A DNA stretch of 64,000 bases, taken from assembly GCA_000151295.1 (NCBI GenBank), contig GG745328.1, positions 509,735-573,734 on the forward strand. Reading direction: 5' to 3'. Below, piece by piece: positions 16,395 to 47,606 of this stretch (its first letter is position 1; every line of letters starts with the position of its first letter). Both the position numbers and the translations under genes were made by a program. Under the pieces are notes generated by a model. That model ran no database searches and was not told where the DNA came from. It saw only the letters and a program-made list of their open reading frames with translations. This DNA is from Allomyces macrogynus ATCC 38327. Lineage: Eukaryota; Blastocladiomycota; Blastocladiomycetes; Blastocladiales; Blastocladiaceae.

Positions 16395-19259
16395 CTACTC
16401 GGCCGTCGCCAGTGCCGGCAACTCGGGTACGGCCGGCACGTCGTGCCCAGCCTTGCCCACCACCGCGGCACACATGGGCGCGTCGTCATCATCGTTAGCC
16501 ACGAGCGCCGGGTCTTTAGCGGCCACGACCAGCGCGTCAAGCAACGCATGCACGTCGCTGATCCCATCCACATAATACTTGGCCGCGCTCGACTTCTTCC
16601 CGACCGTGACGGTCACCGCATCTTTCGCCGCATTCGCAACACACGCAAACACGGCCTCGTCCGACATCCCGTTGCCGACCGACATGACAAACGCGCCCGG
16701 TGTCGCACCCACATCTGCCAAGATCGCGCGCACCGCCGAGGCCTTATCGATTGCCGACGGCCGCAACTCAAGCGTCTTATTCCCGCCCGGAATAATCGAG
16801 ACGGGCAAATGCGACAACATCTTCTCGACATTCACCTGCAACTCGTTCGCCTGCCAAGCCCCAAACTCGGCATCCGTGTCGCGGTAATTCCACGTGAATG
16901 CCACCTCCTTGTCCTCGACGTAACTCCCGGGCGTGCGTTCCGTGTAGTGGTCGAACAGCGGGCGCACTGTGTCTCGCCATGCGAGATCCACGTGGTGAGC
17001 GAGCGCGACCCACCCGTCGGCGTCGGTCTCGGCGGACTTGGATTCGATGTGCGAGTCGCGCGCGTGCCGGTAGAAACACCCGTGTTCAGCCGAGAGGCCG
17101 ACGGCCACGTCCGCATACCACGCGGCCAAGTGCCGCCGCGCGCGGCCGGAGACAATGTAGATGGCGGTATTCGGCACGGCCGCGAGTTCGCGCAACGCCG
17201 CGATCACGTTTGGCGGCGGCGCCGAGAATTCCGGCCGCAGATGCTCCGATGCGAGCGTGCAGCCCTGGTCCAGGAACAGGACGCGCTGCGGGGCCGAAAA
17301 AAACGCGCGCAAAACCGCGGACCGTAGCGGGTCCGTGCCACCGTTCGTTGCCGTCGTCGTGGAAAAATGGGATGCGGTCGGGGATGGCGCGCGGTCGTTG
17401 ACCGCCGTGGGGGGCGCGACGTTCGCGAGGAACCGCGCCGGCGCGAGTTTCGCCGGGTGCCGTGCGGCCGAGGGTCCATTGGCGTCGGTGAACCGCAACA
17501 GTTCATGCACGAACGTGTGGCCCCAGTACGCGGCCGTATGTTTGGCCACGTACCGGAACAGTTTCGCGTGATTGTTCGCACGGTCGGCCGCAGGCATTGC
17601 GAGTGCCGCCGCGTACGCGTCTGCGAGTTCCTCGGTGTTCCAAGGGTTCACGAGCAACGCGCCGTTGAGCGATTGCGCGGCGCCCGCGAATTCAGACATG
17701 ATGAGGACGCCGTGGGCGTCGCGTTGTGCGGCAATGTACTCATAGCTCACGAGGTTCATGCCATCGCGCGTCGACGACACGACACAGACGTCGGCGACCG
17801 CATAGAGCGCCACGAGTTCTGTGAAAGACACGGACTGGTGCAGGTAGTGGATCGGCATGGCCTCAACGGTCCCGTACTCGCCGTTGATCCGGCCAACGAG
17901 CTCGTTGACGGTCGCGCGCAGGTGCTGGTACTCGTCCACGTCCGACCGCGATGGGACGGCCACCTGAATCAAAACCACTTTTCCCATCCATTCCGGATGC
18001 GCGTCGAGGAAGACCTTGAACGCGTGCAATTTGTGCGGGACTCCCTTGATGTAGTCGAGGCGGTCGACACCGACAATCACTTTCGTGCCCGCAAACCGGT
18101 CGCGCAAGTGCGCGACACGCTCGCGGACCGCGTCCGTATCGAGCGCCGCGACAAACTGGTCCGGGTCAATCCCGATCGGGAACGCACCCACGTGCACGAA
18201 CCGGCCTTCGTGGTCGACGCCGTTGGGCATCGTGGCCAAACCGAGAATCTGCGTGCACGACGAGAGAAAGTGCCGCGCATAGTCGTACGTGTGGAACCCG
18301 ACGAGATCGCACTGCAGCAATCCGAGCAGCATTTCGCGGCGCACCGGGAGGATGCGGTACACTTCCGACGTCGGGAACGGCGTGTGCAAGAAGAACCCAA
18401 TCTTGACATTGCGCAGTCCGCGAGCATCGCACTGCAGCCGCAGCATTTGCGGCAGCAGCATCAGGTGGTAGTCGTGCACCCACACGATATCGCCGTCCTG
18501 CAAGGTCGCCATGATCGCGTCGGCAAACGCCATGTTGGCCGCGTGGTAGGCCGCCCAGTGCGCCTCGTTGAAGGCCATGTCGCCCGGGTGGTAGTGGAAC
18601 AAAGGCCACAGGATCGAGTTGGAGAAGCCGTTGTAGTGCGCGTCGGCAATGTCGTCGGGCAGGAACACGGGCACGCACCGGTGCACGCGCGCGAGCATGT
18701 CGGCGATCCGCACCTGGTCGTCGGCGGGGAAGTCCTTGCCGGGCCACCCGATCCAGGTGAACGCCATGTCCTTTTTCAGACCCGAGAGAGCCGAGACGAG
18801 ACCGCCGGACGACATGCGCGCCGTCCAGGACCCGGTCGTCGCGTCCTGCGCGAGAGTCACGGGGAGACGGTTCGACACGACGAGTAGGCGCGCGCCGTTG
18901 GCGAGCTCGCTCGTGTTGGCTGTCGGCATCGTTGTGGATGGTGGCACCGGCGGCGGGGTGGTCGTGGCAGGTGCTGGTAGGTCTTTGGTGATCACGGCAG
19001 GGGACGCCGCGATACCGTTTGTTGGTGCGACGACAGCAGGTTCCGCATCGGTAGGTGCTGGTGCGGACACAGCGGGGGACGCAGTCTCAATCTTGGGTGC
19101 GGGTGCGGGCGTGGCGGGCGTTGCCTCCGGCGCGGCATGAGGCGTTGGCGTCGGTGCAGGGGACGCGGGCGTGTCCATGGGTTGCGGGCATGATTCGTTG
19201 GCATTCTTGCCATCGTTGGCGACCACTTTCAAGATGTCAAGATAACGCCCAATCGGCAT
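16395..19259 (-). CDS. TPS1: Trehalose-6-phosphate synthase with a degenerate phosphatase domain
   Basis: GT20 glycosyltransferase making trehalose-6-phosphate from UDP-glucose and glucose-6-phosphate, fused to a HAD-type trehalose phosphatase domain; 954 aa, one long exon. After ~130 Ala/Pro/Thr-rich residues the synthase shows LLVVSNRLPV, SGGLVSAL, WIGWPGKDF, VHDYHLMLLP, DRLDYIKGV and RDGMNLVSYEY, so the donor and acceptor residues are intact. The C-terminal domain keeps the fold but not the chemistry. Motif I is LFLDQGCTL instead of LFxDxDGTL (nucleophile Asp-664 kept, second Asp lost). The late motif is VGNGMSDEAVF with Asn-863 where GDDxTDE is usual. The phosphatase is therefore probably inactive and may be regulatory, as in yeast Tsl1/Tps3. 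Met-28 (19178) is an alternative start. A Ser/Arg-rich frame upstream (to 19549) could be a 5' exon, but no sound splice joins it. Confidence 0.93.
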   Translation of the reverse strand: MPIGRYLDILKVVANDGKNANESCPQPMDTPASPAPTPTPHAAPEATPATPAPAPKIETASPAVSAPAPTDAEPAVVAPTNGIAASPAVITKDLPAPATTTPPPVPPSTTMPTANTSELANGARLLVVSNRLPVTLAQDATTGSWTARMSSGGLVSALSGLKKDMAFTWIGWPGKDFPADDQVRIADMLARVHRCVPVFLPDDIADAHYNGFSNSILWPLFHYHPGDMAFNEAHWAAYHAANMAFADAIMATLQDGDIVWVHDYHLMLLPQMLRLQCDARGLRNVKIGFFLHTPFPTSEVYRILPVRREMLLGLLQCDLVGFHTYDYARHFLSSCTQILGLATMPNGVDHEGRFVHVGAFPIGIDPDQFVAALDTDAVRERVAHLRDRFAGTKVIVGVDRLDYIKGVPHKLHAFKVFLDAHPEWMGKVVLIQVAVPSRSDVDEYQHLRATVNELVGRINGEYGTVEAMPIHYLHQSVSFTELVALYAVADVCVVSSTRDGMNLVSYEYIAAQRDAHGVLIMSEFAGAAQSLNGALLVNPWNTEELADAYAAALAMPAADRANNHAKLFRYVAKHTAAYWGHTFVHELLRFTDANGPSAARHPAKLAPARFLANVAPPTAVNDRAPSPTASHFSTTTATNGGTDPLRSAVLRAFFSAPQRVLFLDQGCTLASEHLRPEFSAPPPNVIAALRELAAVPNTAIYIVSGRARRHLAAWYADVAVGLSAEHGCFYRHARDSHIESKSAETDADGWVALAHHVDLAWRDTVRPLFDHYTERTPGSYVEDKEVAFTWNYRDTDAEFGAWQANELQVNVEKMLSHLPVSIIPGGNKTLELRPSAIDKASAVRAILADVGATPGAFVMSVGNGMSDEAVFACVANAAKDAVTVTVGKKSSAAKYYVDGISDVHALLDALVVAAKDPALVANDDDDAPMCAAVVGKAGHDVPAVPELPALATAE

Positions 19260-26676: not shown

Positions 26677-27329
26677 GGAGGGTTCGTGGGTTGATAGACA
26701 CCAGTGGCGGAATTTGGTCTGGATTCGGGCAGGCTGCGGTCTCTTGTTGTGGCTGCTTGTGCGTTTGCTGCATTCGCCTGCACCCATCAGTCGCCTCCCT
26801 CAACCACTGCACATTAGGGAGCAGATCGGATCGTTTGCTCCCGTTTACCTCTGCTCAATTATATTCGGGTGGACAAGTGGGATTCGCCAACAAACAGGCA
26901 CGAGAAGAGGGAGCCGAGCCTGGATGGCTTCCCGCACACTACACTGTCGCGTTATGGGCAGCATCTCATTCCGCACTTGTCGCTTTTCTCGTACATTCAC
27001 TTGCTTTGTTATCACCGTCGTATTTGGTAAAGCCATCTTTGGGTGAACAATTATGACGTTGAGGAGCACAGCAAGATTACGCGACATTTTGTGGCGATTC
27101 AAGCTCCGTGCTCTTCGTTTCTGTAAATATCAGGCTGATGCGCCAGAGATTGTGGTCCTGGCGAGATGAGCGCGCAATCGAGAGTCGTGCACCATTGACC
27201 TCAACGTCATCTTTCTCCCCGTTCTTGACATCAACACACGCGACACGACATAGCAATCTCAACCATTCTCCCTCCGAATCAGGTTCCAACCTGCCGCATT
27301 CAACGGGCACAACTTGTGCACGTGTCCGA
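26677..27329. other. Intergenic, lower GC
   Basis: This starts the lower-GC tract that runs to about 38.9 kb. No frame here shows a domain, though the last part may be the decayed 5' end of the first F-box/LRR copy. Confidence 0.4.
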
Positions 27330-28803
27330 GACAGCTGCTTGCTCCAGCTATGCACGCTATCTTGCGCTTCCGCCTGATCGGTGACGCTTCCTGGCCTCGT
27401 GTTGGGTATTTCCGCGCGGAGAAAGGAATGGACAGCCCAACCAACTTGTGTCGCATTCCGGGACTGGATTTGCTACTGCGCGGGTGAGTATCGCAGTTGC
27501 TGATGCGAGATTACGATTCTCAAGTCAATGGCCATTTTTGCCGCTTCCACTCGAGGGTTTGTGGCAATTCAAAATTGCTGATGCGGCCAGTCCGCTAATC
27601 CCGCCAAAAATGTCGCTATCTTTGCATTGACGATGATGACTGGCCCATGGCCTGCTTGCCCACCCACTTTTGAGTACCTTGAGTTGACCACTTTCTCTCT
27701 TGACAGCCCCACGCTCCTTTCTCAGTAATCTCGCGCCGCATCTTCGTTCGTTGTGGCGTTGTCTCGGCGAGCTGAGCGAAGAATGGGATCTGGCGGTCTT
27801 GTACCGCAGATTGCCCCATACATTGGCAGAGTTCAAGCTCGCCCTGGGTTTGGCCAATACAAACCTCGTCCTTGGTTCTCGTGTGAACGAACTGACAATG
27901 GCCCTGGTAAACTTGCCGGATTTGGTCGTATTTGAGCACGGGTTCTTGCATGCCAAGGATGTGCCAAGTGTTCTCGAAAGTTTTGCTTCATGGGGCAGAG
28001 GCCAAGTTGTGCACATGCGCTCGCTCGCACTGAATGTCTTTCCGCCCTTGACTGAAGAGTTAATGGAGAGTGATGAGTCGGATCTGTGCTGGATGCTTGG
28101 AGAGCCATGGGAAATGGCGTGTCGTGCTGCCAGCGCTCAGCTCTCCATTGTGGACCTCAAGTTTGAATCATTCCGCCGTGGGGCGGCGTGGGAGGATATC
28201 GATGCCATGGCCGCGTTTTCAGTGCTGTACTTCCTCCTCCCATGCCCGACGCGTTCACTTACTGCCAGGCTGGTCATGTGGTGCCCTAATTTTATGCAAT
28301 GCCTGAGGACCGGGTCCAGCGACATGGATTGGGTATATTGGGATGTTGACGAGGACTTCTTTGAGTTCAATCCAGACCAGGTGCTTCTGGTCACAACCAT
28401 TCCAGAGGGGTTGTCAGGCTCGGAACCCGTTTGGACGTTTCGAGCGTCTATGACACATGTTGATCTCTCGAAGTGCCACTTGACCACCAACGATCTGCAG
28501 TACATGGCGGAGTGGTGGCATGTGGGTCTTTTGCACCTCAATCTAGCGGGGAATCGGCTGTTGACCGTCATTTAGCCTCTTCGTGCGCGGTTGCGCACGC
28601 TCAATCTTCCGGACAATCTGCTGGGCATTGGTATGCATCCCGAAGTTTGGATCGAAGCGCTTCCGAAGTCGTTGCGCTTGCTCGATGTGACAAGATGCCG
28701 TCTATCAACGTGTGCCATGCAACTGCTGGATCAAGTGATGTTGAGCTCTGGCACGACAAAGACTGGTGCACCAAAGCTGGTCAGTCTGGCAGGAAGGCAT
28801 TAA
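27330..28803 (+). pseudogene. F-box/LRR family copy A (pseudogene)
   Basis: A decayed copy of the local F-box/leucine-rich-repeat family. Homology to copies B and D can be followed in shifting frames: RFRLIGDASWPR (about 27370), LWQFKIADAASPLIPPK (about 27570), then PWPACPPTFEYLELTTFSL (about 27650). A long open stretch follows (27700-28575) with RRLPHTLAEFKL, FEHGFLHAKDVPSVLES and AWEDIDAMAAFSVLYFL. Breaks: stops around 27607-27620, a frame change near 27700, and an in-frame TAG at 28573, after which RTLNLPDNLLGIG and LPKSLRLLDVTRC continue in frame to 28803. No F-box start survives. The 876-nt open stretch might still be translated from an internal Met, but the family alignment argues for a pseudogene. 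Confidence 0.75.
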
Positions 28804-28914
28804 CGGAGGCCTTTTGCAGTGGAGGGCCTCGTCGCGAAAGGAGGGTGGGCTCGTCGAAATGAGTTCTTATCAATTTGAAATTTTATGGAAATCGTTCGGT
28901 TTGATTGGAGTTGG

Positions 28915-29210
28915 GGAATGGTTGACTCCCGTCGCGGCTGCGCGCGCTCAATCTTGCCCACAACCCGCTCAGGCCAGATCCGAACCCCACGGTCTGGGTC
29001 AAGGCTCTTCCTCGTTCACTGCACATGCTCTACGTGATGAGGTGCAAGCTACCAGAGCATGTTGTCGCGTTCTTATCGAAGGTCGCTCTGCGCTAGGGAA
29101 AGATACGGACTGGCTCACCAAGGCTAGTCATCGTGGGTGAAAAGGTTTGAAGTGAGTGTTTCACGGTGGGAAGGCTTGTCCATCAATCAAGGAACCATGG
29201 AGAATCTGTC
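28915..29210 (+). pseudogene. F-box/LRR C-terminal remnant (copy A')
   Basis: A short fragment of the same family. One frame reads LRALNLAHNPLRPDPNPTVW, then KALPRSLHMLYVMRCKLPE, up to a TAG at 29094. This is the C-terminal repeat of copies A and B. Homology continues past the stop into sequence matching the 3' end of copy B (the GGCTTGTCCATCAA stretch), showing that the duplicated unit included 3' flank. Confidence 0.7.
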
Positions 29211-30801
29211 TATTTGTCGACTTGAGGTTGACGTGGTGATGTTGGGCTATTGAAGCATGCAATATCCACATTACCAGAAGACAAGAACGCGACTCCTGCG
29301 CTGCCACCATGTGCCCAAGCGCGGCGGAAGCTGAAGGGAACGAGCGAAGGAAAGAGCCAAACCAAGAAATGAAGCGAGGCGACACATCAGACGTCACAAC
29401 TGCGACCGCATGTTCTATCCCGCGCCAGGCAATGCAAATGCGTCGTCATGCCGCGGTACCAGTGTCACAGGTTATTATGTCCTGCTCAATTGTTTTGGTG
29501 AAATGGTTTGCGCCGTCGCTCAAAGCAAATCGAAGAATGTGGCGACGTCACAAAACACGATGCCTTTGCTTCACATGTGGCATTGCCTCTAGCTGTACTC
29601 TCGCTTGATGCAGATGGCAAAAGATAAAGAACGCTCCATTTCAGGCTCTTACGCAAAGCGGTTCTGACGATCGCAACTTACAAGGTCAAAACTGGAGCGG
29701 ACCATGTTCATGAAGCAGACATGAAACCACGCAAGAACGAAACGACTTTTGCAGTCGGTGCTGGACAAATCAGCTCGTACTGGCACGCGATCACGCTCAC
29801 GTCTCACACACTTGCTCAAACCATGTGCAACAATGGTGCTCAAGCAGCCTGGCCTGCAGTTGCTCGTTGCCACCGCCCTGTCTGCTGGCGCAACGCGCGT
29901 CATTTTTCATTGTTGTTATGGGTTGTCGCGTTTATCCTGGTTCTTGCAATAAATATCGTTGGCCACGACTGTCGAGGTCAGCGGCCATGTACACCTCAAC
30001 CACAACAAGTCACTTGAGTTGCGGTATTAATGACGGCTGCGACATTTACAGGGTCGGTGGTCGCTGGCACACGGGTCTATCGTGTGAAATGAAATGGGGG
30101 CATTATCATGCAATTGTTCGTGACCCATAGCGTCTGCCCATAATGCATCTGTGGCGCGTAAATCCAGGGGTGATTATAGGGAGCTGTAAAGCCAACCAGA
30201 TTCTTCATTCATGGCATTGCGATGGACCGCCGTCATCCATAATGCGTTGCGCAGCGATCAAAGTGCTCACGCTGAGCCTGCGATCACGCAACTGCGGCTG
30301 ATGTTTGCCAGGGTTGCTGGCCGTTACGAGTTGCAGCAGCAGCAGGCTAGCGATGCAAGTTTCCAGCGGCTCAACAAGCTAAACGCATGTCAACGGCCCA
30401 CGTTGCCACTTCTCAGCGGCCCAAGTCGACCATACATGCCGGCCATACAGCTACAGTTGTTGTTGCTGCCGTTGCTATGGAGCCTCAGGTTGCAGTTGCC
30501 ATTGCTGTGGTGCGTAGATTTTGAATTACGTGTTTGGCCACGTCATTGTCACTGGGTCAACTGGCTAAATGGGTTGGAGCGGTCCAAGGCCATCCGCTCT
30601 AACAAGACACTCTCGCTGTACAGCTTGAGAATACCTCCACGGCCCCGTTCTTCGACACCTGTGGCGACTCGAAACCGATCATACTTCAGTCCCACAAGCC
30701 AACAACTTGCCGCACTAAAATCGACCGCAAGCACCCTGTGGCGATCCAACAAGTCAGACCAAGTTGTTGCCCCTGTTCCTTGGCGAACCTGGCTCCCGAC
30801 T
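29211..30801. other. Intergenic, lower GC
   Basis: A 1.6-kb stretch with no recognisable gene. Short frames on both strands lack domains. The frame of copy B is open back to 30211, but that extension (Gln-run, Leu-rich, mixed) has no counterpart before the start codon of copies D or E, so I read it as 5' flank. Confidence 0.4.
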
Positions 30802-33403
30802 ATGTCCCGTGCAACGATTGAGCAACTTCCGCATGATGTTCTCGAACTAATTCGTGAGCGGATCCGCCTCAACGATGCTCACGCTGTGGTTCATTGCCTG
30901 CGCATTTGTTATAACAGGAGCCTGTTTGAGTTTGCGCTGGCCTCAGCTCATTTTTTTGCTCCAGCGGTGCTTGCTGCCATGCACTTCAATCCCAGCCGAC
31001 ACAGCCATTTTGCCTGGCCACGAGTCCATGATCAGCTGGCTTATATCGATATCAGGAGCTGTTTTGATGACGCTGGCGACTTTTATGTGCTGACCAAGGA
31101 AACAGACTGCAAACCCATGGTGGAGCTCATTTTGCCTGCTCAGGATCACAATCGCGTTCGCATTGCTCGTCCACCACTGTTTTCCACCACAAACAACCAG
31201 GTGGACCACGTTGCAGTCCAGTCGCAGTATTCGAACTATTGGTCACGTTTACCGATTTCTTGTGCGAAATTATGGCACTTCAAGGTTTTGGATGCGATGG
31301 CGTGGCCAACAGTTCCACCACTGTGGTAGTGACGTGGTCGCCCTTGGTTCACACGCAGTTTCCGGTTTCTGGGACTGTGATCCAAGTGTGATCCGCCTCG
31401 TCCCCTGTGGCTTCCGTTTCCACTGTTTCCTGTATTGCGCCTCGCGCAATCTTTCCTGGTTTTCTTTGTGCTTTGTGACCTTTTGCCGGTTTTGTGAGCT
31501 TTTGTGCTGTTTCTGTCGGTTTCTCTGTCCGCCTGTCTTAGTAAGCGGGTAAGGCAGACTGGGCCATAATAGCTGGTGCCCACACCAAGGGAGGCCCACA
31601 ACGACGCGGACGCGATTGTGGCCCCTTTGGATGTGCGCGCGGTGCCTTTGCCCAGTCAGTCTGACCTCGCTCGCCTAGCAGGCGTCGGAATGCTGTGTAG
31701 GGACGAGAGTCATTTCAGGAGGCAGAAGGCTGTGACTCCAGCGCAAAGCACTCGACAGAACAAGTATATTTGCCACAGTCAAAGTCGAAGCAAACCCCCC
31801 ATCCCCCAGGCCTGACTTGATCCCAGTCAGCGCCGCATCCACACCACTGTGCCGCTATCTTTGGCTTGAAGATCGCCAACACTCATTTTCCACCCTTACC
31901 AGTCCATGGCCAGCTTGCCTGCCCACAATTGAGTGCCTCAAGCTGACGAATTTCTCACTGGGCGTTGGGGACAACGTTCGATACCTCCCGCCGTATCTTC
32001 ATTCGTTGACGTTCGTCATGGGCGACTTCGTTCGTGCACAGTGCCTTCCTTCACTGTACCGCAGCTTGCCCTGCACGCTGGCGGTGCTCAAGCTCACCAT
32101 TGAATCAGAAGACGCGTGGAATTTTCACGACACTTGTGTGAGTGAGCTGGCTGGCTGCCTGGCGACCTTGCAAGCGTTGGTCGTTATTGAGCATGGATTC
32201 TTGCATGTCAAGGATGTGCCGCGCGTGCTCAAAAGTCTTGCGTCGCGTGGTAATGGCGATGTTGTATGCATGAACTCACTCTCGCTCAATGTCATTCCAC
32301 CGAGTGAGGATGAAGTCGAGTGGAACATGGCCTGGACGCTCGGCGCGCATTGGGAAGAAGTATTCACGGCGGCGGATGCTTTGCTCGAAATTGAGCATCT
32401 CAGGTTTGAATCAGTCCGTCTTGAGGGGGCGTGGGAGGACATGGAGGTATTCATTGCATGTTCTGTGCTGTGCTTCCTTCCGATCCCAACACGCTCGCTC
32501 GATGCCCGACTTGTCCTGTGGTGTCCCGAATGCGTGCAGAAAATCATGAACTGGCTTGGTGCATCTTCGACGCTGACCGACCTGCGCATGTCCAGTCCGG
32601 GGCGAACGCTCGTTGGCGTTGGAGGTGATCCCCACGCGGAAGATTTGAACCCAGGGAGGGTGTATTTGGCGACCGATGTGACGGAAGGGTTTGCTTTCTT
32701 TGGGAATGACAATGAAATCGGCCTGATCTCGACGTGGATGTTCCCTACCGCGCTGACTTCGATCAACTTTTCGGGCTGCAGCTTGATGGATCAGGACCTG
32801 CAGTACATGGCGCGGAGCTGGCCGCGCGGCCTCAAGCACCTGAATCTTGCTTGTAACAATATCAAGACGGTTGCGCTTCCGCTTCCTTCTTCGCTGCGCA
32901 CGCTGAATGTCGCAGAAAACCCGCTGGGTACAGATCCGAAGCCTATGGTATGGATCAGCGCTCTTCCGCGGTCATTGCGCTGGCTCAACGTAACGAATGG
33001 TGGGTTGTCAGCTCATGCCTTGGAAGCACTGTCACGGGTCGCGCTGCGGTCTGGGAAGACACAGTCTGACGCACCGATGCTGGTAGTTATGGTGGGGAGA
33101 ATTGATGAGTGTACTTCGCGGTGGAGAGGCTTGTCCATCAACCAAGGAGCCATGAAGAACATGTTGTTTGTCTTTCTGGGGGGCTGTTGTGAGCAAGTAT
33201 GTCCCAGACGCCGGCTGTTGTCCCGTTTCTCAAAGATTTTAGAGACGGCAATCATGACACGACGACATTCGACACGAATGCAACGCTTGAATTTACTGCG
33301 CTACATCGATGCGTTTCGTGCTCATCTCTGCGGAATGGTTGGCGATGCATGTTTCCAGCTGTTGTTGGGCCGACGTGATCACGCATCAACAACAAGTCTG
33401 TGA
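30802..33403 (+). CDS. F-box/LRR family copy B, interrupted by an insertion
   Basis: The best-preserved member. It begins MSRATIEQLPHDVLELI (F-box-like), then LFEFALASAHFFAPAV, LPAQDHNRVRIARPP and SNYWSRLPIS. At 31325 the frame meets a 516-bp insertion with 10-bp flanking repeats. It resumes with CRYLWLEDRQ and runs unbroken through leucine-rich segments: SLYRSLPCTLAVLKL, IEHGFLHVKDVPRVL, ALTSINFSGCSL, LKHLNLACNNIK, SLRTLNVAENPLG. Removing the insert gives 691 aa. Splicing from GTAG at 31326 to CAG at 31830 would give 698 aa, also in frame. Copies A and D have no insertion at this place. Past about 33110 the frame (GLSINQGAMKN onward) covers what is 3' flank in copy A', so the true stop may have been lost. 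F-box plus LRR suggests an SCF-type substrate adaptor; inference only. Confidence 0.65.
31326..31841. mobile_element. 516-bp insertion with 10-bp direct repeats (transposon or introner-like)
   Basis: CACCACTGTG occurs at 31316-31325 and again at 31842-31851. Deleting one repeat plus the DNA between restores uninterrupted coding sequence aligned to paralogues A and D, so this is an insertion with a target-site duplication. It carries no coding frame of its own. It has a T-rich stretch near its middle (about 31430-31535), and I see no terminal inverted repeats. It begins GTAG immediately after the first repeat and contains CCCAGTCAG twelve bases before the second, which could act as splice sites. 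No known element family is recognised. Confidence 0.6.
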
Positions 33404-33439
33404 CAGATCCCCTCGGCGCTTAAAGCTGACTTTTGCCGG

Positions 33440-34437
33440 CGACAGAATCGAATCGGTCTCGTGTATTGGGACAAGTACATTGGCGGCTATGACGATGGGT
33501 GGAACGAGGAGGACAGGATTGTCGTGATCTGGCTTATTTTGCCTGCTCAGGACCACGATCGTGCACGGTTGATCCTGCCACGCGAATTACTTGATTCTTG
33601 CCAGCACGGTTCTGTCGCTCGTAATGCCGAGCTTGCAGATATTCAGTCACGTTTCTCGAAGCACTGGTCTCGTGTACCAATCCCACAACAGCAAATGCGG
33701 CACTTCATGGTCAATCGTATCTTCCATCATGTCTTCACTCATTTTCGCTTTCCATGGACGACGGCGATTCAGCTTTGGCCTTGGAACCACTTTACCACAA
33801 TTTGCCCCGCACACTGGTGACGCTAAAGCTCACATGTGACTCCGATTCAGCGATGCTCGTTCGTGAAGCTTGTTGGCTGCTACCCTGGCGACCATTTTGT
33901 GTTTGATCGAAGTTGAGCACGGTTTCTTGGGTGCCGAGGATGTGGCGCGTGTGCTGGAAGGCCTCGCGCCGCGTGGGGGTGGTCAAGTTGTGCATATGCA
34001 CTCTCTCACGCTGCATTTCTTCCCTCCTGACACGAAAAACCTTGTGAAGAGCCCCGGATCAAACCTGCTCCGGACCCCAGGCGCGCCGTGGGAGGCCCTG
34101 TGCTGTGCGGCCAATGCTCTGCTTGCCAGTGAGCACCTCAACATCGAATCGGCCTGTCTTGAAACAGCGTGGGAGGACAAGGACTTCATGGCTGCATCTT
34201 CAGTGCTGCTATTTCTCCCAATTCCGACGCGATCGCTTGCTGCCAAGCTCATCCTGTGGCGCATATCCAGCGAGGCGAAGCATTACCGTGCGCGATTCGG
34301 ATCCAACCCACACATGGAAGCCATTGTCAACCCGGGCTCCGTGTTTCTCGCGACAACCCTCTCGCAAGGGTTTCAGTTCTCTGAAGACGACGTCGAAGAC
34401 GCTTCGTTGATCTCGACGTGGACGTTCAACGCGCATT
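33440..34437 (+). pseudogene. F-box/LRR family copy C (pseudogene)
   Basis: Lacks the F-box end. The first part reads IWLILPAQDHDRARLILP and SKHWSRVPI in one frame. It jumps at about 33780 to LALEPLYHNLPRTLVTLKL, and again at about 33875 to LIEVEHGFLGAEDVARVLEG, PTRSLAAKLILW and VFLATTLSQGFQF, ending at a TGA at 34437 inside ISTWTF. The repeat segments after that are missing. At least two frameshifts, a truncation and an internal deletion near 34260 (TRSLAAKLILW joins straight to SEAKHY) mark a pseudogene. Confidence 0.7.
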
Positions 34438-34746
34438 GATTTCTCGACGTGCCGCTTGACTACCGATCCACTTTGGCAAAGTGGGAAGTCTTGGCCATTC
34501 TCAACGTCGTCCACCCCAGCGACGCCGCGACGTACGCGACGCCACGCCGTCGACTCGATCCTCCAGCCGCAAATCCAGACTTCAATGACTTGCCGCATTC
34601 AATCTTTGTGACTTCAGCCCCTGAGCATTCAAGACTGTCGCGACGATTCGCGCGCAATACGCAACGCAGCTCGATCCTGGCCACATCTCACGTTCAGTCT
34701 CCGTTGATTCCCTTGATAGAGGCCAATTCTGTTCAGATCTCGACCA

Positions 34747-36416
34747 TGACCCGGGCGCCTATCGAGCAGCTTCCTCTTCCCGTTCTCGACATGTTAAGTC
34801 AGCACGTTTGCTGCAGTGATGCAGATACGAACCTTCGCGCCGCCCGTGCCAGCTTGTTTGAAATTACATTGGCATCTCCCTAATTGTTTTCTCCAGCGAT
34901 ACGCGCTGTCCTCCGCTTTCGTCTGAATGTCGACAATTCTTGGCCTCGAAATGGGACTGTTCGTGTGGAAGGCATGACCCTCACGCGGATGACTTTCGCG
35001 TACTGTGGAATGAAGTGAATGGGAGCAGCAAGATTTGGCCCAAGCTGCTTGCTCGGGATCACAGCCGCATGCGCATTAATCGGCCACCCCGGGCGGACCA
35101 GGCTCATGAGCAAGACCATGCAGTGGTCGCTGCACTGGCTGGTTCCCAATCGCAATTCTCGAGCAGGTGGTCATACTGGCAGATCTCCCCTGAGAAAATG
35201 AGCCTCTTTGATCTTGACGCAGCAACCGATCCAAAGATTCCACCACGTTTTCGCTATCTTCGCATTGCATGCGAGTCCTTTGACGAATGTGAAGGCTCAT
35301 CATGGCCAACATGCCCGCCCACTCTCGAAAACCTCATGCTAACGTCGTATGCGCTGGATCCCGCGTATCTTGCTCAAAACTTCCCGCCACATCTTTACTC
35401 GTTGTCACTTGCCTTTGACGACCCGGACACAGCTACGACACTTGCAGCCTTGTACCGCAACCTGCCCAACACCTTGATGATTCTCCAGCTCAACCGCAAT
35501 TTCCATGGCTCAATAATTTTTGAGGAAGAGTGTGTTGATGATCTTGCTGCGGGCCTCGCCGCCTTGCCGCGGTTGCACAATTGCCACGAGTCCTCGAGAG
35601 TCTTGCATCGCGCGGTCGTGGTCAAGTCGTACACATGCTCTCACTTATGTTCCGTCTGTTTCCTGGGGAACCGGTGGAGGATTTTGGTTCGGACCTGCCT
35701 TTGACGCTGGGCTCGTCATGGGAGGACTCAATTGGCTCAGCGAGTGCTCTGCTTGACGTTGAACACATTGGAATTCAGCCTGCGCGGCTCGAATTGGCGT
35801 GGAAGAACGATGATGCCGCGGCCCTGTTTTCAGTTGTCCTCTTTCTCCCAATGCCAATGCGCTCACTTGCCATCAAGCTCGTCTTGTGGAATCCTAGCTT
35901 TGTGCAGTGTCTCATGGACTGGATTAGCCTGTCTTCGACGCTCCCGGAGTTATGCTTGAGCCGCAAAAAGCGCATCATTCGTTTGAGGATCCCACGGCTG
36001 ATCTGGACAGAGGCCAGGCTCGATTCTGAATCGGTGTATTTTGTCACCACTTTTAGGCAAGGGTTTGCAACTTTGGAGATGGCGGCGAAACCGCCCAGGT
36101 CTTGACGTGGACGTTCACCAACACGCTCATGACATTTGACTTGCCGGCGTGCAACTCGACCAACGATGATCTGCGGTGCATGGCGCCGCAGTGACCGCCT
36201 GGCCTCAAACACTTGAATCTTTCATGCAACAAGATCTCAACGGTCATGTTGCCGCTCCCGCTGGCACTGCACACGCTCAAAGAGGCCGAAAATCCACTGA
36301 AAAAGGGATTGGACCACAAAATGTGGATTGACTCACTTCCGCGGTCGTTTTGTACGCTAAATGTGACAAAGTTCGGGTTGCAGGTACGCTTCATGGAATT
36401 ACTTCGGTAGGTGGCC
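34747..36416 (+). pseudogene. F-box/LRR family copy D (pseudogene)
   Basis: Starts intact with MTRAPIEQLPLPVLDML (F-box-like) but has an in-frame TAA at 34881 where the others read ASAxFFAPA. Homology resumes (RFRLNVDNSWPR; LLARDHSRMRINRPPRADQ; IPPRFRYLRIACESFDE; NFPPHLYSLSLAFDD; LYRNLPNTLMILQL), shifts frame near 35575 (PRVLESLASRGRGQVVHM; FLPMPMRSLAIKLVLW), again near 36095, and meets a TGA near 36192 before LKHLNLSCNKIS. The contiguous IPPRFRYL stretch proves the family has no intron where copy B is interrupted. Confidence 0.75.
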
Positions 36417-36622
36417 CAAAGCTTTGGGATAACCCGGCTCAGCATGCTGAAGCTGGTCGTGACGGCCAAAAGCGATTGATGCTCTTTGTCTGGATGGGGC
36501 TCATTTTTGCCCATCTGGGATAAAGCGTTATACAGTACCAAAAAGCGTGCATCGTTTTTGATGTGCAGAAACAAAAGAAACAGTTTTCACGATATCCATC
36601 CCATTGACTCAAACTGCCCAGT

Positions 36623-37277
36623 TTATTGACGCCCAATCTTGCGACGCATGTCAACCTTGGCGTTCAGGCACGCCACGTCGTTGTCTTCAGCGTCATAGAC
36701 CAGAGCGTGGATGTAGAACACAGACTAGATTCGCACCCACTTCCGCGTTAGCGCACTGTATCCAAGCGTCGGTCCACTGATGCAACGCCATGCGCAAACG
36801 TACCGGTGGGACTTCCTTGGGCAAATCTATTTCGACGCGAATCACTTGGTGGCCCGTGGGAATCGGGCACGGCAGGCCAGGGTGGAGCCACGCCTCATCG
36901 CAAAAGTCGTACGTTTTGCCGAGCAGCTTGATGATGCCGAGCTTGACCGTCATTTCGACATACGCGCCCTGATCAAGCGGCTTCAACAGGAAACCTTCGA
37001 TTTCGACGACCGCGTTTTGCCCAGCCACGAGCGGGTCCGGAATAATGCGCGCCGACAACACTTGGAACAGGTCATGGTCTCCACCACACGACTCGATGGA
37101 ATGCGCGTCAATGTAGTTGGCGGCGTGGCGGAGCGCGGCGTGCGGCTGCACAGTCGACTGCAGCGGTAGCTCGCTGTTGTGCGACAAGGTGCGGATCGAG
37201 GGCGCAGCAAGCGTCGGGGCGGACACAGCCACGAGCAACACGAGCGCGAGGAGCAGGGTCGGCAGAGCGTTGGTCAT
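36623..37277 (-). CDS. NPC2: NPC2-like ML-domain lipid transfer protein
   Basis: Small secreted or vacuolar sterol/phospholipid carrier (MD-2-related lipid recognition fold; fungal PG/PI transfer protein). CDS is complement(join(36623..36724, 36804..37277)), 191 aa. Residues 1-25 (LPTLLLALVLLVAVSAPTLA) are a signal peptide. The ML domain follows: SIESCGGDHDLFQVLSARI, PDPLVAGQNAVVEIEG, GAYVEMTVKLGIIKLL, DFCDEAW, LPCPIPTGHQV, and LPKEVPP at the splice junction, then SVFYIHALVYDAEDNDVACL. The cysteine pattern expected for three disulphides is present. Without splicing the frame runs into unrelated sequence, so the second exon matters. The gene sits intact inside the tract of decaying F-box/LRR copies. 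Confidence 0.92.
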
Positions 37278-38330
37278 GGTGGGTTGTGAAATCTCAGTAA
37301 GTTGTTGGATCGGTCGTAGCTGAGGGAGAAGAAGAGAGAATGCGTCTTTCAGACCATGTGGCAGACGGGAGAAGAGGGCGCAGTATCTGCGGCCTGCGCA
37401 TGCTTTTGGTGTGTTGGCGGTGATGCAGCAAGGCACGACTTGGCGTTGTCCACCAGAAACTCAAACAAAGGCCAAGGCCCCGACTATGACTGTTTCAACT
37501 GGTCTCTCTGGTCCTTCGTTCAGGGCCAATGAGCTATTTGGGGAACCGGGGAATGAACGGGAATGAACTGGAGGTCGTTGGTGAGCATTGTCCAGCGGCC
37601 CAGCATGGGCGAGCTGCCCTGAATGTTTACATCATTCGCGACTCGTGAGCATCATTCCACTTCAATCCCATTCCTTCAACACGTACCGCCGACCAGCTGC
37701 ATCTCAATCCGCCACCACTCAATGCTTCCGCAAACTGCCACAACTTTGCGGCACATTGTACTGTCACCATCCCCACAAGAGATGCAGTCCAAGGCTCTTG
37801 TCTGCATGCTTGCTCTGAGCTCTTTTGTGCGTCGCCAAATATCTCCCTGCCGTCACATATTTGCTCTAGCACATGCACTTAAGGAGCAGATACACACACA
37901 TGACGTGCTCGATTCAGTCAGTCGTGGTTCACTGCAATCGTGAGCCCTAGCAGGGACAACGTTCAAGCAGGGCACTGATATTTAGATTTGATTTTGGGTC
38001 CGCTTTAGTTGTTTGTTATGTATCACTTTTTTCGGCGTTCTTGGGCCAAACTTGCCAACATCAGAACTTGAGCAATGTGTGGCGCCACGCCGTGTCAAGA
38101 CTTGGCGCCATGCCTTCACCTTGTATAGTTCGACCTCTGCCTCCACGGCGCTCAACACATCAACCCGAGTAACGACTTGCATCATTCGCTTTTCTGTACC
38201 GGGCAACATCTTGATCGTGCAAGTGTTGATTCTTGCTCAAGTTTGCAGCTACTCTGCCTTCGAAACTTGATATCGCCACATTAGTTTTCAACTCGCTTGT
38301 GCCTTCAACGTTTTCACCGTTTGCTTGCCA
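37278..38330. other. Intergenic, lower GC
   Basis: Upstream region of the NPC2-like gene and of the F-box remnant that follows. Only short frames without domains are present. Confidence 0.4.
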
Positions 38331-38548
38331 TGACCTCAGCACGAGCGTCCATTGAGCGGATCCCATTCGATGTGGTTGAGCTTCTCTGCCATCATCTGCA
38401 TGGCGAGGATGGGGCCGGGCGTGGTGGAGATCCTTTCGAATTTGCGCTTGCCTCTGCGATCTTCTTTGCGCCAGCTGTGCGCGCCGCCCACTGCTTTCGG
38501 CCGCGCCATGGTGCCCACTGGCCTGCAGTCTATGACCAAAATGATTAG
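38331..38548 (+). pseudogene. F-box N-terminal remnant (copy E)
   Basis: Opens MTSARASIERIPFDVVELLC, then FEFALASAIFFAPAVRAA, matching the first ~75 residues of copy B, and stops at TAG after WPAVYDQND. No LRR part follows. This is a 5' fragment of the family and marks the right-hand edge of the cluster. Confidence 0.7.
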
Positions 38549-39242
38549 AAGGCCGCCACCCTGGATCACCAGAACCTTTCACGTGAAGAGAGTTGTGTCG
38601 TTGGATCCTATTTTGTGACCTGGTGAGATGGTGGCCCTCCGACGGACGATTCGACTTGCTTTGCCGACGCGTGATAACAACCGCGCCCGCATGGCTCTGC
38701 CACAGCAATCCTACAGTTCTATCGACCATTCTTCCCGGCTTTCTTCGCGATTTGTCATTTCACGGTAAGGCCGGCAGGACACCAGCGGGACGCTCTTGCC
38801 ATGGGCCGCGGGCTGTCATCATCGCAGAATGGCAATCTGACCAGTGGGCTAGAATCCGCTGCGATTTTCTCCACCGAATTATCCGCAGAAGAGATGTCGG
38901 CCGTCGCCACAATACCTTGCCAATCGAGACGAAACGGACGACAGCACGCGTCTCTCACGTCCCATACATTTTCCACGTGGCGTCATAGAGTTAGGGCGCT
39001 GTTTCCTGGCCCTTGCGATGCAAGTTGCGGACTTGCGAGGAAGAACCTCTGCTTGCGACGCCCCACGTCGGGCAAACCATCCATCCATCTTCGCTGGCGA
39101 ACGCGTTGGGAACTATTTCCGGCAGCAGCTCTCTTTGTGCACGATTGCCAGACCCAGCACGGCCACGACTACCCGCATTGCAACCGCTTTACGCGCCAAC
39201 ATCCCGCCAACCAGTCGTTGTTCGACCAGCCAAGTACCAGCC
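38549..39242. other. Intergenic
   Basis: A 694-bp gap. The frame of the next gene is open back to 39018, but the added sequence (basic, Cys-containing) looks non-coding. It presumably holds that gene's promoter and leader. Confidence 0.4.
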
Positions 39243-42317: not shown

Positions 42318-42622
42318 AATGGAGCTTGATTATGTAGTTGGTTGGTATTGCCGTCGAGTTTGTTCTGAGTTGTTGTGATATTCAACCTGCGATGGTTGCA
42401 AGAAGAACACAAGTTCTCCGCTTCGCATCAACGTTGAAAGAACTCCTGTTCATGTCGCTTCCTTCTCCACCAGATAGGCGGGACGCAACGACGATATATT
42501 CACTTCATGTGAGTGAGCAATCCGAAAAGGGGAGCTGCCGCTCGTCAATTTTTCCACGCCCACCCGGTATATTTACCATTCATTTATCACCACCACAAAT
42601 TCCAACTTTCGGTTGCTCAACT
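42318..42622. other. Intergenic between convergent genes
   Basis: A 305-bp space between the hydrolase stop and the transporter stop; 3' UTRs only. Nothing else is visible. Confidence 0.4.
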
Positions 42623-44450
42623 TCAAATGCCAAGAGCAAGGCCCAAACCGTAACCGACCGTCATGACCAGCCCATACACACCCATCGACGCCGGCACGCC
42701 AACGATCAAAAAATCGCGCGCCGCGAGCCACGTCTTGCCGTCGCGGTCCTCTTGCGCGCTCGCGTTCATGTTCGGGAACCCCGACACGGGCAGGCCGCCC
42801 GCACCGCAGTCGATAAGCACGACGATAAGGACCATCAGCCGCGGGTGGCCGCCGGCCAAGCTCATCCCAACCTGGGCGACAACGGGCAAAAGAATGAGAG
42901 CAGCAACGGTGTGCGAAATGAAGGTGCCGATGACGAGCATCAGAGCCCCGAATACGGCGAGTACGGTCCACGGTCCCAGTCCGTGCGTGGCCTCGGAAAT
43001 GCCCGTTGCGACCGTGGCCAGCAAACCGGACGACGTGACGGCTTGTCCGAGCGCAATCCCGCCCATGGCGAGCATGATGACCGTCCCTACATAAGCCGGA
43101 GCGAAATAGAAGAACCGTCAGCGTGGTCACGAGAGACAAGGGGCTGGCGCATGCGCTCGAGAATGATCCGTACACTGGAATGCGTTGAAGTCGTCCTTGT
43201 TGAGCAGGCCCGTGCCGAAAAACACGACGAGCGGAAGGATCGCGATCAGGCCCATGTCGCCCACGACCGACTCGATCGTCGACTCGACACACCAGAGGAC
43301 AATCGTGACGAGCGTGACCGCGATAATGAACCATTGCTTGGCAACCATGGACCCGCCCACGCGCTTGAGGGGCTCAACCGTCGGCGTCGACTTGTGCGGC
43401 TTAAATACAAGCAGCAGTAGGCCCCACGCCAGCACGTCGGCGATGAGCGCGACCGGAATCGAAATGGCAAACCACTCGCCCCATGACACGGCAGGAGACA
43501 TGGTTTGAACGGCAATCACGTTCTGCGGCGACGCAATGGGCGAGATCATGCCGCCATTCTGTCCACGCGCGAAAACACCGGTGAGCCGCGGGATCACGAG
43601 ATTACTGGATGGAGAACGTTCGTAACGTACGTTGGACGCAAGTGCAATACCGAGAATCAATGCCTTGCCAAACGGGTCGCCCGAGGGCAGCGCCATGAGG
43701 ATGGGCTATCGTCGTTTCGGTTGAGTATAAGGAAACGAGTAGGTAACGGTGAACGATGACAAACGCCATCCGAAGCAAACCCGTGCGCACCTGGACAATC
43801 GAAAAGCAAAGAACTGGAGCGGCCACGTTCGAGATCCACATGGACGCAAATGTCGCGACGAGCATATTCGCGAGCAGCACCCACACCGACTTGGTCCCAG
43901 CGCGCGCAAGCAGAGAAACGGCAAGTCGCCGGGCGATACCATGTTTGGCGAGCGCAGCGGCAATCGAGAACCCGCCAAGCAAGAGCATGATCGTCGGCGA
44001 GAACATGGATGCAAAAATGGCCCTGGTCGCGGCATGGGCCGAGAGCCGCACGCCCGTCTCGGAATCACGCAGCACACGCAAGAGCACTACGAGCAGTGGC
44101 ACCACCAGCGCCGTCACGTAGAGCGGCAAAGCTTCGGTCGCCCAGAGCCACGACGCGGCAACCAAGATCGCAAAGCAGCCCTGCTCCTCGGGGGATCGAA
44201 ATACTCGGACCTGCGTGAGAACGGCAAGAAGGATGACGCCGAGGACAAATAACGACGTCTTGCGGCCGGGCTGCGGAACGCGGATCCCACACAACTTGAT
44301 CGTCGGTACTGGAACAGCCTGATGCTTGAGCAGGTTCACAGGGTCGAGCGAAATCGAGAGCCGTTTTGCAGCAACGGACTCTGGAGCGTTTTCAATCGAT
44401 GCGATTTCGACATCGCGGTCGATGTCTTTGGCCGAAGTAGGGTCACCCAT
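42623..44450 (-). CDS. SLC13/DASS-family anion transporter, PHO91-like (copy 1)
   Basis: Polytopic membrane symporter resembling the transmembrane half of yeast Pho87/Pho90/Pho91 low-affinity phosphate transporters, without the N-terminal SPX domain. CDS is complement(join(42623..43086, 43174..43558, 43631..43705, 43791..44450)), 527 aa. About ten to twelve hydrophobic segments. Family blocks: CFAILVAASWLWATEALPLYV, SPTIMLLLGGFSIAAAL, ANMLVATFASMWISNVAAPV, SPIASPQNVIA, SHTVAALILLPVV and GGLPVSGFPNMNA; the SPIASPQN and GLPVSGFPN hairpins form the anion site in this family. Substrate (phosphate, sulfate or dicarboxylate) cannot be read off. Its last intron (43087-43173) is absent from the tandem copy. 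Exon 1 has exactly the same length as in copy 2. Confidence 0.92.
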
Positions 44451-45368: not shown

Positions 45369-45720
45369 GACGGCGGAAAGCTTTTACGTTTTGGTTGCGG
45401 GTTTGCAGCCGACTTTGATTTTTTTGGCATGGCTCGGCTCGGTCAGCAGTTAGTTGGCATGTTCACATCGTTTCCCATCCCTAAATCCACTTCTGAAGCG
45501 GCCTGCTCAGCCCAACATCACATTTTGCGCTTCTGCTGCTCCTGACCCATTTCATGCCCTTCTGGTCTCCTGGTCGAAAAGGAAATGGCAATGTCACATT
45601 TTCTATGAACAATGAGGGCGACATGACGGCCCTCCACTCAAAACACGCCTGCCAAACGTGTGCGTGGCCTGCAATCCTGGGCAATACAAAAACATCAAGC
45701 AGCACATAACATGCCTCCAA

Positions 45721-47606
45721 CTACAATCCAAGGGCCAAACACAGGCCATATCCGACCGACAAGACAATCCCGTAAACGCAAATCGACGCGGGCACGCCGA
45801 CCTTCAAGAAATCAATGGCCGCGAGCCACCTCTTGCCTTCGCGGTCCTCTTGCGCAACCGCGTTCATGTTGGGGAACCCCGACACGGGCAACCCACCCGC
45901 GCCCGACCCAATCAAAACTGTGGCCATGACGAGCAATCGCGGGTGGCCGCCAGCCATGGCGAGCCCGACTTGGTTCACGACCGGCAGCAAAATGAGGGCC
46001 GCGACGGTGTGCGAGATGAACGTTGCAATCACGAGCATCAACCCGCCAAACGCCGCGAGCACCGACCATTGGGGTAGCCCCTCGACGGCCGACGAAATCC
46101 CTGTCGCGACCGTTGCGAGCAGACCCGACAAATTGACGGCTTGCCCGAGTGCGATCCCGCCCATGGCGAGCATGATCACGGTCCACTGGAAAGCTTGGAA
46201 ATCGTCCTTGTTGAGCAGGCCTGTGCCAAAGAAAACGAGCAACGGGAACATGGCAATCACACCCATATCGCCAATCACGGCCTCAATCGTCGACTCGATG
46301 CACCAGAGCACGATCGTCGTGCCCGTGACCGCGACAATGAACCATTGCTTGGCGTTGAGCGAGCCCGCAACGGGCTGGAGCGGCTCGACGGTCGGCGTCG
46401 ACTTGTGCGGCTGGAAGACGAGCAGCAGCAGACCCCATGCAACGAGGTCGCCCAGGAGCGCGACGGGCAGCGCGACAGCGAACCAGTCGCCCCAGGATGC
46501 CGCCGGCGACATGGTTTGGATCGCAATCACGTTTTGCGGCGACGAAATGGGTGAGGCCATACCGCCAATCTACGTCGGTGGAGAAGCATCGTGGATCGTC
46601 AGATTCGTCGCTCCATTTCTCATTGCGACGTGTTGCAAGAACCACGTACGTTCGACGCGATCGCGATACCGAGAATCAAAGACTTGCCAAACGGATCGCC
46701 AGACGGCAAGGTCATCAAGATGGACTGTTAGAAATAACGGAAGGTGCGCGCATGCGTGGCAGTCAGCAACAGGCCGGTCGCGAAAACGTGTTTTGGATCC
46801 CGCGCGTCCGGCCGCCGCCACTTTCGCCGAGATCAAGCTCTTCGGCGGATAAAGGCCGCAGATACGATCTGGGTCGCTGGTTTTGCCGCAAGGCCATGGT
46901 TCTTGCTTCGGCAGAGCTTCCAGAACAATACAAGATTGCAACGTACGTGAACAATCGAAAAACAAAGGACCGGCGCGGCCACGTTCGAGATCCACATCGA
47001 CGCAAACGTCGCAACGAGCATATTCGCGAGCAATACCCAAACGGTGCGTGTGCCGGCGCGTGCGAGCAGCGACACGGCGAGCCTTCGTGCGATCCCGTGC
47101 TTGGACAGTGCCGATGCAATGGCGAACCCGCCGAGCAAGAGCATGATCGTCGGCGAAAACATGGTCCCGAAAATGGCCTTGGTCGCGGCATGCGCATCGA
47201 GCCGTGTGCCTTTGCCGTCGCGCAGAACGCGTAGCAAGACGACGAGGAGCGGGACGGCCAGCGCGGTCACGATGAGCGGCAATGCCTCGGTCGCCCACAG
47301 CCACGATGCGACGACAAGAATCGCAAAGCATCCTTGCTGTTCGACGGTCGCAAACAGGTGGATTTGGGTCAGGACGACCAGGAGAGTCACGCCGATTAAG
47401 AAATTGAGCGTCTTGAGTCCTGGTCGCGGGATGCGGATGCCGGCGATGCAGATCGTAGGGCCATGGTAGGCTGCTGGCTCTGGCCGCTTCGTCGACACGA
47501 TGGACTGGCGCTTCTCGGATGGAACGCCCGTGCCGCACTCGAGATCAACAAATCCTGGTGCCGGGTGGACGGCGGCCGATCGGCTTAAAGATGACAGCGG
47601 GCGCAT
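45721..47606 (-). CDS. SLC13/DASS-family anion transporter, PHO91-like (copy 2)
   Basis: Tandem paralogue of copy 1. CDS is complement(join(45721..46569, 46650..46724, 46947..47606)), 527 aa, exactly the length of copy 1. Exon 1 (660 nt) and exon 2 (75 nt) match copy 1 in size and phase, but the third intron is missing: FQAFQWTVIMLAMGG is continuous here. Conserved blocks are the same (WLWATEALPLIVTALAVPLL, SPTIMLLLGGFAIASAL, SMWISNVAAPVLCF, GGMASPISSPQNVIAIQTM, GGLPVSGFPNMNAVAQED). The N-terminal ~70 residues differ most and carry no SPX domain. The 222-nt second intron is longer than the equivalent in copy 1 (85 nt). Expected role: proton- or sodium-coupled uptake of phosphate or a similar anion across the plasma or vacuolar membrane. 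Confidence 0.92.

Follow-up and report, generated by a model that had tools for sequence, protein, structure and literature searches.

A probable solo LTR within a leucine-rich-repeat gene of Allomyces macrogynus

A TGTNR start and a 4-bp target duplication are common to the LTRs of Gypsy retrotransposons and to the Ginger DNA transposons, as set out in the available part of PMC2836005 (compare the available part of PMC3601003). The same part of PMC2836005 gives terminal inverted repeats of about 40-270 bp for Ginger1 and 50-180 bp for Ginger2, and CCGG or CCGT/ACGG as the Ginger1 targets. Introners are surveyed in PMC9860276, which in its available portion finds most of them consistent with DNA transposition and describes introners with 4-bp duplications as well as introners that add residues. 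The words LTR, solo, Allomyces, Blastocladiomycota and chytrid are all absent from the main text of this survey. For Allomyces macrogynus an intron density of 1.30 is given in a table within the available part of PMC8476143.

We analysed a 64,000-nucleotide stretch of Allomyces macrogynus DNA (the window), in which a leucine-rich-repeat gene is interrupted by a mobile element (Table 1). This element is probably a solo LTR. Somewhat less firmly, we lean towards the fuller reading, in which the LTR belongs to a Ty3/gypsy-type retrotransposon and most likely breaks the gene, and is not spliced out. The first-pass annotation had described the same place as a 516-bp insertion with a 10-bp target duplication that may behave as an intron of the introner type.

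Table 1. Features of the interrupted gene and of the element, in window positions
Feature	Positions	Strand	Basis or remark
Upstream part of the interrupted leucine-rich-repeat gene	30802..31321	+	from the first ATG in the alignment of relatives
Left target duplication, 4 bp, CCAC	31318..31321	.	alignment and flank comparison
Mobile element, LTR-like copy, 522 bp, TGTGG...CCACA	31322..31843	+	sense to the host gene; ends from the 17-copy alignment
5' end TGTGG, one half of the 5-bp terminal inverted repeat	31322..31326	+	matches the Gypsy LTR pattern TGTNR (available part of PMC2836005)
Putative intron of the first-pass annotation, GTAGTG...AGTCAG, 505 nt	31326..31830	+	one of 7 frame-keeping pairs among 48
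First in-frame stop (TAG) for the host frame, within the element	31327..31329	+	ends ORF 30211-31329
3' end CCACA, second half of the 5-bp inverted repeat	31839..31843	+	17-copy alignment
Right target duplication, 4 bp, CCAC	31844..31847	.	alignment and flank comparison
Downstream part of the interrupted gene, to the stop	31848..33403	+	Pfam LRR_1 match in ORF 31817-33403

The boundaries of the element were placed where similarity begins and stops across 17 near-full-length copies. The string CACCACTGTG is indeed present on both sides, at 31316-31325 and again at 31842-31851, but it is not the target duplication: the family ends give 4 bp, CCAC, and an element of 522 rather than 516 bp. The repeat appears to be 10 bp long because TGTG both starts the element and stands downstream of the target, while CA both ends the element and stands upstream of it. 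Judging from the sequence, the remaining 6 bp are a coincidence. Outside the family ends the flanks agree over exactly 4 bp in 11 of the 17 copies, and an agreement of 5 or 6 bp occurs in none. The eleven exact targets are CCAC, ACGC, CCGT (twice), ACGT, CCGC, CTGG, ATGT (twice), CTGT and GTGG. The other six copies lack an exact duplication, which counts against the reading that we prefer; one mismatch is present in L039, L044 and L045, two in L038 and L046, and four in L052. The 5' TGTGG is exact in 14 of the 17 near-full-length copies, the exceptions being TGAGG, CGTGG and TATGG.

Of the features expected of a solo LTR, TG...CA ends in the TGTNR pattern, a short inverted repeat and a constant duplication in the range of about 4-6 bp are found here. 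A solo LTR of the Ty3/gypsy type is the best fit to such ends, to the 4-bp duplication and to an inverted repeat as short as 5 bp. The constant duplication and the inverted-repeat ends, together with aligned 3' ends that carry no A-rich tail, argue against a SINE or other target-primed retroelement. Such an origin would suit a short, multi-copy element in which no long open frame was taken as coding. However, a SINE should have a tRNA-, 5S- or 7SL-related head or an A-rich tail, and longer duplications of variable length, whereas the tRNA and Rfam searches of the region, window copy included, gave no match; we give this origin a very slight probability.

The genome (54.0 Mb in 75 contigs) was searched with 31316-31851 as the query. 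At least 34 matches were found at at least 27 places, of which 17 are near full length and 10 partial. The idea that the insert has further copies in the genome is thus borne out, and the element is a multi-copy mobile one, which has a target duplication and a relative where the site is empty. The partial copies at C40:69535 and C40:147216 have two stretches in common, 1,770 and 1,048 bp long and 100% identical; the second spans the fragment itself, and the two copies therefore represent one insertion that was duplicated. In L050, L051 and L052 the element is longer: its bases 277-361 are duplicated in tandem within it, with a spacer of about 30 bp, and the partial copy L055 (also L028) is arranged in the same way. 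At L044:3490-3544, some 480 bp upstream from a full copy, there is a 55-bp fragment of the 3' end in inverted orientation. Two copies adjoin remnants of a Ty3-type pol, L045 with a Pfam Integrase_H2C2 match and L051 as judged from its similarity to L045 and from a reading of its frames. When ten flanking frames were compared with Pfam, six had matches, which are genes or transposable-element parts near the copies; no match in these frames spans a copy.

The search for a full-length parent used the whole element, each of its two ends, two diverged copies and one end pattern. The five sequence queries added nothing to the 27 places and brought up no copy with two LTRs and an inside, in an assembly that contains runs of N. 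The end pattern gave 59 matches versus 35 in the control; 20 have at most one mismatch, and one of these (C49:631469) lies outside the family. A full element, with an inside between two LTRs, is absent from the places found, and this too counts against our preferred reading. As the copies found all lack an internal region, a non-autonomous DNA transposon remains a candidate. It would be a MITE-like element that was mobilized by a Ginger-kind transposase resembling Gypsy integrase and was never part of a retrotransposon, and it would break the gene as well. Its TGTNR end and 4-bp duplication match, CCGT is the target in two of the eleven exact copies, and the genome searches returned no two-LTR copy. 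However, at 5 bp the inverted repeat falls well short of the ranges given above for Ginger1 and Ginger2, and neither the end queries nor the end pattern led to a long element bearing these ends. We regard this origin as unlikely, with a minor though real share of the probability.

Integrase-core matches in the genome number 81, with Gypsy and Ginger counted together. We examined 30 of these 81 loci (1.5 kb on each side, E 0.01), and the element is absent from them; as far as these flanks reach, this counts against the LTR reading. Compared with each other, the 30 loci contain a single large young family and a pair (L082, L083), and among these loci neither the family nor the pair could be tied to the element. 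At C65:956806-974726, four integrase-core matches are spaced by 5,873, 5,873 and 5,884 bp, like a tandem array of retrotransposons.

The copies L038 and L039 are 99.4% identical, point in the same direction and lie 8.3 kb apart; the pair occupies L029:201-724 and L029:9047-9571. Each of them is 86-96% identical to the other copies, with the exception of L049 (about 85%). We considered them as the two LTRs of one element and rejected this: a P-type ATPase gene lies between them, their outer flanks are unlike, and relatives on contigs C34 and C63 lack L039 alone. The frame between them, 1,243 codons long, reads as a P-type ATPase; in its C-terminal part there is a Pfam Cation_ATPase_C match, which at E 6.7e-5 falls below the curated cut-off. 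At the L039 position the relatives on C34 and C63 are contiguous, which marks L039 as an insertion on its own and speaks for our preferred reading. The sequences on either side of L038 match different contigs, therefore a rearrangement or gene conversion is likely to have occurred there. With a DNA transposon of the Ginger kind, the high identity of the pair at 8.3 kb could come from local hops.

We next turn to the host gene. With 526 bp deleted, a single open frame runs over 691 codons, starting with the ATG at 30802, and apart from the element this frame has no other break. The Pfam LRR_1 match in its downstream part scores 21.7 bits (cut-off 20.6); a protein search with the downstream part, in which the 7,996 candidates with the most shared words were scored, gave nothing at E 0.001. 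It had been claimed that excision restores both the frame and the alignment to two paralogues, A and D, in which the site is contiguous. The frame and the contiguity in D hold; A can be aligned over the site too, although a gap of 10 residues follows directly on the junction. Both paralogues, which lie in the window, are themselves broken: A has five stops in its main alignment and two in a second one, and D has four stops over four pieces in different frames. Over positions 27300-38600 the window carries the leucine-rich-repeat gene as an array of copies, which have diverged and are mostly broken, around one copy that is open save for the insertion.

An empty site is present on contig C57, where a single CACCACTGTG lies at C57:432365-432374 and the flanks are contiguous. 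The region C57:431900-433100 is 76.0% identical to the window on the left flank and 77.7% on the right. The protein alignment of this locus (residues 1-258) passes through the junction and has three stops; on C57, too, the gene is broken.

The window copy has seven private substitutions over 521 compared sites, and its tree branch is 0.029. As the private changes may predate the insertion, this divergence is an upper bound on the age of the insertion. We simulated neutral decay of the host frame, with the indel rate taken from the element copies. The frame stayed intact in 5.9, 1.5 and 0.2% of the runs at 1.3, 2.0 and 2.9% divergence, respectively. An intact host frame is thus unusual if the gene has been dead for as long as the private changes suggest, and this also counts against our preferred reading. 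Since these changes could be older than the insertion itself, a recent insertion accounts for the intact frame no less well than splicing.

For the solo LTR we suggest the following course of events. A retrotransposon integrase would first have placed a full element at CCAC; later its two LTRs would have recombined and the inside would have been lost, so that one LTR remained. The transcript of the gene is predicted to run into this LTR, and the product would stop after about 175 residues.

The other way to read the same arrangement is that the copy acts as an introner: it would be spliced from the transcript as an intron, 21 extra bases would be left behind, and the gene would still work. The GT at 31326 and the AG ending at 31830, named in the first-pass annotation, do exist, and their use would remove 505 nt, keep the frame and add seven residues. 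This GT (at base 5) and this AG (13 bases before the end) are present at fixed distances from the ends in 15 of the 17 copies. Thirteen of the 15 are free of stops, in all frames, over the 17 element bases that would stay behind, with the four target bases left out. In the window copy the AG is preceded by a CTGAC stretch, presumably branch-point-like, and the host frame has no further break, as neutral simulations rarely give. However, seven of the 48 GT/AG pairs at the edges keep the frame open anyway, therefore one frame-keeping pair is weak evidence, and the intactness is accounted for equally well by a recent insertion. Two introns that we read by eye in a proteasome-subunit gene near L041, a very small sample, are 82 and 80 nt long with donors GTGCGC and GTACGG, versus 505 nt here. 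The intron density quoted above we take to be per kilobase of coding sequence.

The distribution of the copies speaks against the introner as well. A codon-score test of the flanks separated coding from non-coding DNA poorly, and a junction-spanning frame test was used instead. In it the flanks were joined, and random nearby positions within the same few kilobases served as the local null; the limits were 100, 60 and 40 open codons on each side, so that shorter exons would be missed. At 100 codons or more on both sides only the window copy is open, one site of 17 versus a null of 17.4% (about three expected). At 60 codons 5 of 17 sites are open versus 40.6%, or 4 of 17 versus 27.7% in the sense orientation, and at 40 codons 12 of 17 versus 63.7%. 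An introner family should have many copies as introns within genes, similar right up to the splice boundaries. Copies are not enriched in open frames here, and the family lends the proposed introner-type behaviour no support. That copies sit in introns with matching direct repeats holds as to the repeats, exact over 4 bp at 11 of 17 sites, and finds no support as to the introns, for which open frames served as a proxy.

We consider the introner reading improbable; it is, for the sequence at hand, unproven and not favoured. There is an equally small chance that the LTR doubles as an introner, in which case its own ends would supply a GT donor and a CTGAC...CAG acceptor, and landing in an exon would create a tolerated intron. 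On that view, to which we likewise give little credence, splicing would always add 21 bases, mostly without a stop in the element's share, and the window would hold the one clear exonic copy, in a gene whose frame is still intact.

The window contains CFAP58 and a fused trehalose-phosphate synthase/phosphatase (TPS), and its G+C content is 60.5%. Part of the TPS gene has a second copy on C57 at 89% DNA identity. The C57 counterparts cover window positions 16395-18000 (89% identity) and 30633-32100 (76-78%). As the TPS match lies about 9 kb off on the same C57 contig and strand, C57 is probably a duplicate of the window region, which suggests that this region belongs to a duplicated genome block. 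Between positions 42618-44288 and 45718-47441 of the window there are three pairs of matching stretches, 73-75% identical and about 3 kb apart, a diverged tandem duplication. A scan for bacterial promoters and terminators found nothing, the models being bacterial and not applicable to this genome.

As an LTR-like insertion the locus is a routine and largely ordinary case, a mobile element that interrupts one gene of a family in decay. The locus is useful as a clean example, because the ends, the duplication and the empty site are all readable. If RNA showed the element to be spliced, LTR retrotransposons would be linked to the birth of introns.

Last, we compare the locus with the known systems. 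Like the introners in the available part of PMC9860276, the element has a target duplication, putative splice sites at its edges and a frame that is kept with added residues; unlike them, its copies are not enriched in open frames, and its splice sites are predicted from the sequence. With Ginger1, Ginger2 and their non-autonomous copies it shares the TGTNR ends, the 4-bp duplication and CCGT among the targets. However, its 5-bp inverted repeat is far from the 40-270 bp or so given for these elements in the available part of PMC2836005, and no transposase could be tied to the present ends among the places and integrase loci examined. From the solo LTRs of Ty3/gypsy elements (Metaviridae) it differs in that a matching full retrotransposon was not found in the present assembly. 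It resembles them in its TGTNR...YNACA ends, its short inverted repeat, its 4-bp duplication and its occurrence as scattered single copies.
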